Position numbers and translations under genes: made by a program. From positions 434,001 to 498,000 of the forward strand of contig NZ_SWJG01000003.1 in the NCBI RefSeq assembly GCF_005870035.1: 64,000 bases of DNA, read 5' to 3'. Shown piece by piece: positions 13,076-19,682 of this stretch. The notes under the pieces were generated by a model that made no database searches, had not been told where the DNA came from, and was given only the letters and a program-made list of their open reading frames with translations. Every line of letters begins with the position of its first letter. Positions within the stretch are counted from its first letter, which is position 1. The DNA comes from Spirosoma lacussanchae (GTDB taxonomy: Bacteria; Bacteroidota; Bacteroidia; Cytophagales; Spirosomataceae).

Positions 13076-13708
13076 CTATACCAGTTCCGTGAATAACTCC
13101 TCGTGTGGTTTACGTACTTTCGGTGCTTTAGCCAGAAAATCTTTGGCTTCGTCGCGGTAGCCGAGTGCCATCACCAACACGCTGGTGAGGTTCTTTCCGG
13201 GCAGGCCCAGCAATTCGTCGAGGGCGGTGGCGTTGAAACCTTCTATGGGGCAGGAGTCCACTTCTTCAACGGCGGCCGCTACCAGTCCGAAGCCCAGCGC
13301 AATATAGGCCTGGCGAGCGGTCCAGTTCCTGAGTTCATCGGCACTTCGGGTCAGCAGAGATCCTTTTATGGACGTGGAAAAGCCGTTCAGCGACTCGACG
13401 GGTATAGCGCGGGTTTGCGCAATGCGCTGCATGTAGGTGTCGATATGGTCGGCGCTTACCGTCAGCTGCGAGGCAAAAATCAGGATGTGCGATCCGTCGA
13501 CGATCTGCGGCTGCGGACACGCCAGTTCGTGTATTTTGGCTTTCAGGACCGGGTCTGACACCACCAGGATTTCGTAAGGCTGGAGGCCAACCGAAGAGGC
13601 CGATAGCCGGATTGCTTCCAGAATGGCGTTTACTTTCTCCGGAGCTACTACCTGCCCGTTCATATTCTTGACGGCATAGCGCCAGTGGAGTGCATCGGCA
13701 AAATTCAT
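13076..13708 (-). CDS. Nitroreductase-family NAD(P)H oxidoreductase
   Basis: 210-residue FMN enzyme of the NfsB/YfkO-like nitroreductase family. The N-terminal flavin-binding motif RYAVK (residues 10-14) is present, as are the SASSVGLQPYEILVV segment and a late GYRDEAKDF loop. Such enzymes reduce quinones, nitro compounds or reactive electrophiles in the cytoplasm using NAD(P)H. It is divergent from an HxlR-type regulator with a 38-nt palindrome between the two starts, so it is very probably that regulator's target. Start ATG 13708 gives the standard family N-terminus (MNFADALHWRYA). Confidence 0.9.
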   Translation of the reverse strand: MNFADALHWRYAVKNMNGQVVAPEKVNAILEAIRLSASSVGLQPYEILVVSDPVLKAKIHELACPQPQIVDGSHILIFASQLTVSADHIDTYMQRIAQTRAIPVESLNGFSTSIKGSLLTRSADELRNWTARQAYIALGFGLVAAAVEEVDSCPIEGFNATALDELLGLPGKNLTSVLVMALGYRDEAKDFLAKAPKVRKPHEELFTELV

Positions 13709-13743
13709 ATCTATATATTTAAAAGTTTGAAACTATTTGCCTG

Positions 13744-13751
13744 CAAAATTA
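13744..13751 (-). promoter_or_regulatory. -7 promoter box of the nitroreductase gene
   Basis: TAATTTTG on the minus strand fits TAnnTTTG exactly, 35 nt upstream of the ATG. A TTTTG lies 15 nt further upstream (13767-13771), shorter than the usual 19-21 nt spacing. Such a suboptimal promoter next to the palindromic operator would suit activation by the adjacent regulator. Confidence 0.5.
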
Positions 13752-13776
13752 TGTATGCCCGATATGCAAAAGATAG

Positions 13777-13814
13777 CACTATCCCAAAGGATACCGGTAT
13801 CCTTTGGGATAGTG
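13777..13814. promoter_or_regulatory. 38-nt perfect palindrome, probable HxlR operator
   Basis: Two perfect 19-nt arms (CACTATCCCAAAGGATACC and its reverse complement) with no spacer lie between the divergent nitroreductase and HxlR genes. Length and dyad symmetry fit binding of one or two HxlR dimers. The absence of a T-run and the location between two divergent starts argue against a terminator. Confidence 0.7.
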
Positions 13815-13837
13815 ATCATGCCTTAAAAACCAGGATT

Positions 13838-14197
13838 ATGGTAGCCGAACACGGACAAACGATTAGCCAGGCCGAATGCAAGCATAAGCTGGGTGGTGTT
13901 CATGACGCGCTGTATGTGCTCAGCGGAAAATGGAAGCTACCCATCGTTATTGCGCTGCACGCGGGACCCAAACGATTTGGTGAACTGCAGCGAGTTATCG
14001 GCGACATTACGCCTAAGCTGCTGTCGAAAGAGTTGAAAGAGCTGGAAATGAACGAGTTTGTGAAACGTCAGGTATACGCCAGCACACCCGTCCTGATCGA
14101 GTACGAGCTGACCCAGTACGGCCGCTCGCTCGACGGTATCATTCAGGAACTTTGTATTTGGGGGATACAGCACCGCGCCCGGATTCAGTCCCGGTAA
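13838..14197 (+). CDS. HxlR-family redox-type transcriptional regulator
   Basis: 119-residue winged-helix DNA-binding protein of the HxlR/DUF24 family, acting as a dimer. The core motif is VLSGKWKLPIVIALHAGPKRFGEL (about 28-50), then the recognition-helix region GDITPKLLSKELKELE. A Cys at position 14 is where DUF24 redox sensors (for example HypR of Bacillus) carry their reactive thiol; a second Cys is at 106. ATG 13838 is chosen because earlier in-frame starts would place the perfect palindrome inside the coding region. It probably regulates the divergent nitroreductase and itself. Confidence 0.88.
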   Translation: MVAEHGQTISQAECKHKLGGVHDALYVLSGKWKLPIVIALHAGPKRFGELQRVIGDITPKLLSKELKELEMNEFVKRQVYASTPVLIEYELTQYGRSLDGIIQELCIWGIQHRARIQSR

Positions 14198-18710: not shown

Positions 18711-19682
18711 ATGAAAAGCATCCTATTCGAACAAACGGGTAAGCCCGCCGATATTCTCAACGTTACAGACGTCGCCATACCTGAGCCTGGACCCAACGAA
18801 GTACGCATCCGGGTCGTTGCCAGCCCCATTAATCCGTCCGATATCATGTTCGTACAGAACCTGTACGGCATTCGGCCACAGCTGCCGTCGGGGGCGGGTT
18901 TTGAAGGGATGGGCGTCGTGGATGCCGTCGGCGAAGGGGTACAGATGCGCACCGGCGTCCGGGTTAGCTTTACCGGCGTCGGAACCTGGGCCGAGTATGC
19001 CATTGCACACCAGCGCAGCCTGATTCCGGTGCCCGATGCCATGACCGACGAGGTGGCGGCTCAGCTGTTCGTCAATCCCTTTACGGCCTATGCTATGGTA
19101 AAAGACTCGGGTGTAGCCGAGGGTGGCTGGCTGATGCTGACGGCGGCCGGTTCGGCGTTCGGTAAAATGGTAATTCAGCTCTGCGCCATGCGGGGTATAA
19201 AGACCATTGGTACGGTTCGGCGTAACGACCTCAACGACGAGCTGAAAACCCTGGGACTGACCGAAGTAATCAATACTGAAACGGATGATCTGACCGCCCG
19301 GGTAAAACAGATTACCGGGGGCGCCGGTGTGAGCTGCGTGCTCGACGCGGTCGGTGGTCATACGGCCTCGCAGGCCCTGACCTGCCTGGGTAAAGGCGGA
19401 ACTATGCTGGTTTACGGCCTGCTCAGCGGGCAAGACCCGACTATCAGCGTAGGGTTAATGATCTTCCGCGAGCTGACCATCAAAGGATTTTGGCTGACGG
19501 ACTGGATGCGCCGTGTAGACAGCGCGACCCGGCAGGAGGTGGCGCAGAACGTGATCTCGCTGCTATCATCGGGTGCAATTCAGCTACCCGTCGAAGCGAC
19601 CTATTCACTCGATCAGATTACGGAAGCTGTTGCCCACGCCGACCGGCCCGGGCGATGGGGTAAGATACTCATCAAGCCGTAA
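18711..19682 (+). CDS. MDR-family oxidoreductase, 2-enoyl thioester reductase-like
   Basis: 323-residue medium-chain dehydrogenase/reductase. N-terminal GroES-like domain (about 1-115) includes SPINPSDIM, the signature of MECR/ETR-type 2-enoyl thioester reductases, with LFVNPFTAYAM further on. The Rossmann cofactor domain (about 120-280) has AAGSAFGKMVIQLC and DAVGG. The Cys cluster that binds structural zinc in alcohol dehydrogenases is absent, so this is a zinc-free NADPH reductase despite frequent alcohol-dehydrogenase labelling. Substrate not determinable; an enoyl-CoA/ACP or quinone is likely. Confidence 0.85.
   Translation: MKSILFEQTGKPADILNVTDVAIPEPGPNEVRIRVVASPINPSDIMFVQNLYGIRPQLPSGAGFEGMGVVDAVGEGVQMRTGVRVSFTGVGTWAEYAIAHQRSLIPVPDAMTDEVAAQLFVNPFTAYAMVKDSGVAEGGWLMLTAAGSAFGKMVIQLCAMRGIKTIGTVRRNDLNDELKTLGLTEVINTETDDLTARVKQITGGAGVSCVLDAVGGHTASQALTCLGKGGTMLVYGLLSGQDPTISVGLMIFRELTIKGFWLTDWMRRVDSATRQEVAQNVISLLSSGAIQLPVEATYSLDQITEAVAHADRPGRWGKILIKP

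Follow-up and report, generated by a model that had tools for sequence, protein, structure and literature searches.

That HxlR-family (DUF24) regulators control redox genes is already known. Among the described members, HypR of Bacillus subtilis is reported to be an activator (PMC10458429) and its target, HypO, to be a flavin disulfide reductase, while HxlR of the same species, which is activated by formaldehyde, is likewise described as an activator, with a DNA-bound structure (7bzg) and a reactive N-terminal Cys11 that forms a crosslink with Lys13 (PMC7835342). YodB and CatR of B. subtilis and QsrR of Staphylococcus aureus are MarR/DUF24 quinone sensors with a conserved N-terminal Cys and are described as repressors; azoreductase and nitroreductase are named among the members of the YodB/QsrR quinone and electrophile regulons, and single-Cys mutants of YodB and QsrR are reported still to sense quinones via S-alkylation. 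The YodB box is given as TACT-N7-AGTA, and a position at the N-terminus of a helix is said to activate the YodB thiol (PMC8063818). Two further DUF24 proteins of B. subtilis, YtcD and YdzF, are uncharacterised, and no work on YdzF as a bacterial regulator was found among the literature matches listed.

We compared with these systems a locus in a 64,000-nucleotide stretch of DNA from Spirosoma lacussanchae (the window), in which a regulator of this family stands divergently from a nitroreductase. The features of the locus are as follows.

13076 to 13708, minus strand: nitroreductase (NfsB-like, FMN/NAD(P)H family), the presumed regulated partner (PF00881, E 4e-19)
13744 to 13751, minus strand: -7 box of the nitroreductase promoter, TAATTTTG, 28 nt past the 32-mer operator
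13763 to 13776, no strand: third, degenerate dyad (TATGC-AAAA-GATAG) at the usual place of a -33 box; 3 nt separate it from its neighbour
13767 to 13770, minus strand: TTTG inside the third dyad, 15 nt before the nitroreductase -7 box, an unusual spacing
13777 to 13814, no strand: perfect 38-nt palindrome, the predicted operator (from comparison of its arms and from conserved architecture)
13780 to 13793, no strand: dyad on the nitroreductase-promoter side, TATCC-N4-GGATA, predicted site for one regulator dimer
13798 to 13811, no strand: dyad on the hxlR side, TATCC-N4-GGATA, predicted site for a second dimer, its centre 18 bp from that of the first
13838 to 14197, plus strand: HxlR/DUF24 winged-helix regulator, 119 aa (PF01638, E 5.8e-28)

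The regulator scores 97 bits against the PF01638 profile (cut-off 20.8); for the nitroreductase, the top NCBIfam match is PRK11053.1, under its cut-off, and the closest PDB match is 3of4. An earlier note on this DNA had described a divergent HxlR and nitroreductase pair with starts about 130 nt apart, and the family matches on opposite strands and the two start codons (ATG 13708, minus strand; ATG 13838, plus strand; 129 nt between them) agree with it. It was also right about a spacerless perfect palindrome, whose 19-nt arms (13777-13795 and 13796-13814) are 100% complementary with a 0-nt spacer, about a Cys at position 14 of the regulator when translation starts at 13838, and about a nitroreductase promoter with a normal -7 box and short spacing (TAATTTTG read from 13751 to 13744, with the TTTG upstream). 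By arithmetic, about 2e-7 such palindromes would be expected by chance per 64 kb. A feature absent from that note is that the palindrome is composed of two tandem TATCC-N4-GGATA dyads, each 14 bp and of the general form TATnC-N4-GnATA. Within the window, only these two dyads match TATCC-N4-GGATA at one mismatch or fewer; the exact 14-mer has four copies in the 6.3-Mb genome, two of which are the palindrome dyads. The third dyad departs from the form by 3 mismatches in the (4,3) arrangement, meaning 4 nt inside each dyad and 3 nt between dyads, and a comparable position is occupied in the tails of other loci.

The regulator's closest relative is in Spirosoma sordidisoli TY50. Between the window and S. 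sordidisoli (L006), the nitroreductase is 98% identical and the regulator just 91%.

A palindrome of this kind can also be read through its centre, as GGATA-CCGG-TATCC, and the choice between dyads was addressed by a spacing survey of 56 non-redundant HxlR found by protein alone, covering inner and outer spacings of 1 to 8 nt at two mismatches or fewer. The (4,4) arrangement was present in 26 of the 56 and absent in 30, while shuffles averaged 0.0; this set excludes genes represented by a locus that the pattern had found, so its operator count is an underestimate. No arrangement with 1, 3 or 5-8 nt inside the dyad gave any match among the 56. The (4,3) arrangement occurred in 5. Four of these reflect a weaker third dyad that overlaps a strong (4,4) site, and the fifth (L127) is a true variant with 17-bp dyad spacing, 1 bp shorter. 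Single cases of (2,4), (2,8) and (4,8) each fell at loci that also have (4,4). Since the inner spacing of 4 nt is nearly rigid and the outer spacer is 3 or 4 nt, dimers on TATnC-N4-GnATA are favoured and the centre dyad is disfavoured as a dimer site. Three loci (L154, L160, and L161) have a (2,5) array with 2 mismatches and no (4,4) site, perhaps another type of operator.

To search genomes, the 32-bp core was compared with sequences ahead of other HxlR genes and generalised to TATNCN4GNATA-N4-TATNCN4GNATA, which has 20 fixed letters, and this pattern was searched blind to gene positions in one genome per species, with the same pattern backwards as the control. Across 222 genomes of the family, the pattern matched exactly at 59 distinct sites, spread over 45 genomes, and the control at 0; 46 of the 59 lie directly upstream of an HxlR ORF (41 by distance and 5 with an ORF extension running through the site). 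The other 13 are without HxlR and stand upstream of DoxX (6), YceI (4), a luciferase-like monooxygenase (2), or nothing recognised (1). DoxX and YceI also occur as HxlR-adjacent partners, and a relative of the luciferase-like gene follows the DoxX partner in L186. A phylum sample of 392 genomes, 4 of them shared with the family set, gave 10 exact sites in 9 genomes, again with 0 for the backwards control; at the 8 loci newly fetched from it, HxlR adjoins the site in 7, and the remaining site (L172) lies inside a reading frame without HxlR. A scan of named genomes with the window regulator returned 31 loci, 17 in Bacteroidota (Spirosoma, Fibrella, Fibrivirga, Arsenicibacter, Flavobacterium, Mucilaginibacter, Siphonobacter, Pararcticibacter, Pedobacter, Desertivirga, and one more) and 14 outside. 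The operator was present at two mismatches or fewer in 15 of these 17, being absent in L187 and L188, and in 0 of the 14 outside the phylum; a minimum of 7 of the 17 come from genomes already sampled (6 Spirosoma and Arsenicibacter).

Together, the sites cover 9 genera of the family, other families, and seven partner classes, although the loci are related by descent and the counts are not of independent events. In a loose scan at two mismatches or fewer, 36 genomes of the genus yielded 135 places for the pattern and 72 for its backwards control, and this noise limits sharp specificity to exact matches or to looser ones directly upstream of HxlR. The window's own 32-mer has one exact copy in its genome. 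By the earlier note's own criterion for refutation, a palindrome not conserved beside orthologous pairs, its proposal survives: the operator is kept beside most orthologous regulators (the 22nd locus of the ortholog group in the genus, L026, has none), though the partner there is usually not a nitroreductase. The comparisons support the palindrome as the predicted operator of the regulator, and this recurrence beside many redox-stress genes across Bacteroidota looks like a widespread switch rather than a one-off copy from Bacillus.

The distance between the operator and the partner's promoter is nearly constant. TAnnTTTG, the -7 box, is described as the primary promoter element of Bacteroidota (PMC7366714), and it is placed at -12 to -5 in Flavobacterium psychrophilum (PMC9723704). 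On the partner strand it lies 27 or 28 nt beyond the operator at 42 of the 46 HxlR-adjacent sites, at exactly 28 nt in 27 of them and at 27 nt in 15, all 15 of which are pirin genes; on the HxlR side TAnnTTTG follows the operator in 1 of 46, at a different distance. The box is at 28 nt in all 21 genus ortholog-group loci examined (L026 left out), with nitroreductase (2) and DoxX-like (19) partners alike, and on one side of the site in 7 of the 13 HxlR-less cases. Thirteen of the 17 named Bacteroidota loci have it at 28 nt, and L186 has it at 29 nt. The rule weakens farther out in the phylum, since only 4 of the 8 newly fetched loci (L167, L169, L170, and L171) have the box at 28 nt. Relative to the partner promoter, this fixed distance sets the operator at about -72 to -41, a position that suggests activation. 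Between the operator and the box, a third dyad-like element covers about -36 to -23, and the 42 loci with a -7 box at 27 or 28 nt all lack a TTG ahead of it at spacers of 16-23 nt; TTTG at a spacer of 15 nt, found in 5 of the 42, is part of the third dyad. A missing -33 box argues only weakly for activation, because that box is described as not identified in Flavobacterium johnsoniae and as variable in spacing in B. thetaiotaomicron (PMC7366714).

For hxlR itself, 27 of 46 loci have TAnnTTTG on the hxlR strand ahead of the operator, 26 nt before it in 16 and 15 nt before it in 11, so that the operator would fall downstream of the expected hxlR start. In the 26-nt cases it would fall just downstream, and the hxlR box and the partner box stand back to back, 1-2 nt apart. 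The window locus has no recognisable hxlR -7 box, with TATGCCCG alone at 13754-13761.

Six g22 genomes (L097-L101, L112, and L124) have a 32-mer identical to that of the window upstream of DoxX with no adjacent HxlR, and a KefB-like antiporter, named by eye, is next door in some. At the six g22 DoxX sites, TAnnTTTA, read by eye, stands in place of the -7 box.

Partners of the regulator are varied. Labelled by tblastn, with Pfam for ten representatives, the partners at the 46 HxlR-adjacent sites are pirin (16), DoxX-like (15), NmrA-like or similar NAD(P)-binding reductase (8), YceI (5), and nitroreductase (2). Azoreductase-like (Flavodoxin_2) partners occur in other families, at L170 (by Pfam), at L185, L187, L188, and L191 (by tblastn), and at L169 and L171 (by eye); L187 and L188 are among them without the operator. 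In the genus, 2 of the 22 ortholog-group loci (the window and S. sordidisoli) have a divergent nitroreductase and nearly all the others a DoxX-like gene, and among the genomes searched only these two combine a nitroreductase with the tandem-dyad operator. In G009 and G017, HxlR of other types stand divergently from nitroreductases that are less closely related, and the tandem-dyad operator is missing; in G009 (L050:1370-1500) the nitroreductase is 48% identical and a different inverted motif, GTTACCTTTTTGTCACTA / TAGTGACAAAAGTAAAC, intervenes. We ruled out orthologs of the window's nitroreductase as carriers of the operator, because 12 of them in the genus (60-63% identity) had no HxlR in the fetched loci and no upstream palindrome of more than 12 nt. 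Of these orthologs (L037-L048), 11 of 12 neighbour a DsbA-like gene, named by eye, and 5 a YceI-like gene, which hints that they have a redox pathway in common.

The window regulator contains Cys14 and Cys106 and no other Cys. Cys14 is invariant in a 40-sequence alignment and, in the predicted structure (pLDDT 92.7), lies near the N-terminus of a helix spanning residues 11-28. The earlier note had equated it with the reactive thiol of HypR, which the alignments contradict: Cys14 of the window lies 18 residues before a conserved Trp, whereas Cys14 of HypR lies 13 before it; an ungapped alignment sets HypR position 14 opposite Gly19, and HMMER needs a 5-residue gap to pair the two Cys, which are thus five residues out of register. 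HypR Cys49, which we take to be the intersubunit disulfide partner of HypR Cys14 (Cys14-Cys49'), aligns with Ile54, and 50 of 58 operator-bearing relatives have no Cys after the Trp. YodB has C-terminal Cys101 and Cys108; the window regulator has Cys106 as its sole Cys after the Trp, and its alignment with YodB stops at YodB residue 97. The HxlR crosslink also finds no counterpart in the window's Cys14-Lys15-His16, which has no Lys two residues on. YdzF, like the window regulator, has its Cys 18 residues before the Trp.

Across 96 HxlR proteins, a Cys at Trp-18 or -19 is present in 58 of 58 with the operator and in 24 of 38 without it; this Cys therefore marks a clade in which the operator is frequent and is not by itself a predictor of it. 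The same association was seen within two genomes, those of the window and S. sordidisoli, where our own profile recognised 18 of 20 PF01638 loci: 5 of the 18 (two orthologous pairs and one more) have the operator and are exactly those with a Cys at Trp-18, and of the other 13, 9 lack this Cys and 4 are not measurable because the Trp motif was not found. We define a tandem-dyad HxlR clade by an operator at two mismatches or fewer, a -7 box 27 or 28 nt beyond it, and a Cys at Trp-18; the window regulator belongs to it, with 0 mismatches, a box at 28 nt, and the Cys at Trp-18. A column of the recognition helix tied to TATCC versus TATAC half-sites was sought, none stood out, and a recognition-helix code was dropped since the associations track subfamily. 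The predicted model has the winged-helix fold of the family (Foldseek; HypR best by E-value, 1.6e-9; HxlR K13A, TM 0.83), and YtcD is the top PDB sequence match (45% in Foldseek). HypR, HxlR, YtcD, and YodB rank together, so fold cannot choose between an activator and a repressor.

We consider it just probable that this is an electrophile or redox response module in which the regulator activates its partner from -72 to -41 and represses its own gene. Two regulator homodimers would bind the two TATnC-N4-GnATA dyads, with a third perhaps contacting the degenerate dyad that overlies the -33 place. From this position the regulator would recruit RNA polymerase to the nitroreductase promoter, which has a good -7 box and no -33 box at the usual spacing, and the same complex, lying just upstream of hxlR, would limit hxlR synthesis. 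Modification of Cys14 by an electrophile or oxidant would alter the action of the complex, raising nitroreductase output; sensing at Cys14 is suggested by what is known of the family and by partner classes across Bacteroidota (azoreductase and nitroreductase) that overlap the YodB/QsrR regulons. Activation is favoured because the strongest dyads are upstream of the core promoter at a near-invariant distance and the usual -33 box is missing. The main rival, given the precedent of YodB, CatR, and QsrR and the overlap of the third dyad with the -33 place, is a repressor whose dimers cover -72 to about -24, with the weak third dyad blocking -33 and modification of Cys14 releasing the DNA and derepressing both genes. 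This is distinctly possible, if on balance improbable: the dyad-like element near -33, the match of partner classes to the reported YodB/QsrR targets, and the quinone sensing reported for the single-Cys mutants speak for it, but the best-conserved dyads lie upstream of -41, the site overlapping the promoter is the weakest, and none of the 42 promoters has a TTG at spacers of 16-23 nt. The window's tandem dyads also depart from the YodB box, and, while YodB, CatR, and QsrR repress, the position of the window operator suggests activation.

The earlier note had proposed a counterpart of HypR-HypO; in a true one, activation through a Cys14-Cys49' intersubunit disulfide would switch on one nitroreductase. 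The two systems share family and fold, and HypR is described as an activator tied to a flavin reductase gene; even so, we reject orthology on the Cys register, the missing Cys49, and the identity of the usual partners, and regard a true counterpart as very unlikely. Long perfect palindromes can also be transcription terminators, cruciforms, or mobile repeats with no operator function, a reading made scarcely credible by the location of this one between divergent starts, by exact copies that accompany HxlR genes and keep a fixed distance from a promoter box, and by the single exact 32-mer in the window's genome.

Returning to activation from -72 to -41, we offer tentatively, as a little short of an even call, a broader reading in which these proteins form a phylum-wide class of HxlR that measures off a set distance, like a molecular ruler. 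Tandem dyads would hold two dimers, and a dyad in place of the -33 box perhaps a third, one invariant step from the sigma-ABfr -7 box; in the many loci where the boxes of regulator and partner are back to back, polymerases would compete, and bound regulator would tip the balance toward the detoxifying gene. Partners would be swapped freely and the geometry kept. We read the operator-promoter architecture as new, and no account of the tandem-dyad operator, its fixed promoter distance, or its spread in Bacteroidota was found among the openly licensed PubMed Central matches listed. In practice, an exact 32-mer with a -7 box at 27 or 28 nt is a sequence rule that points to HxlR targets in Bacteroidota genomes, including targets lacking a nearby regulator, and it connects a regulator whose Cys is conserved with redox genes of unclear control (DoxX, YceI, pirin, and luciferase-like monooxygenases). 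The architecture also suggests a way for an activator to operate on a promoter type in which a clear -33 box is often missing.

Elsewhere in the window, a quinone-oxidoreductase-like gene (18711-19682; top NCBIfam match PIG3, under the cut-off) lies 4.5 kb from the pair. A search rule of a single dyad plus a -7 box at 1 mismatch was set aside as too noisy, with control counts similar in many genomes, and that scan served solely to point to a second site in the window's genome. This second copy of the module (L207:740-1508; G000:C22:41491) consists of a 112-aa HxlR and a DoxX-like partner; its operator has 2 mismatches and its -7 box lies at 28 nt.
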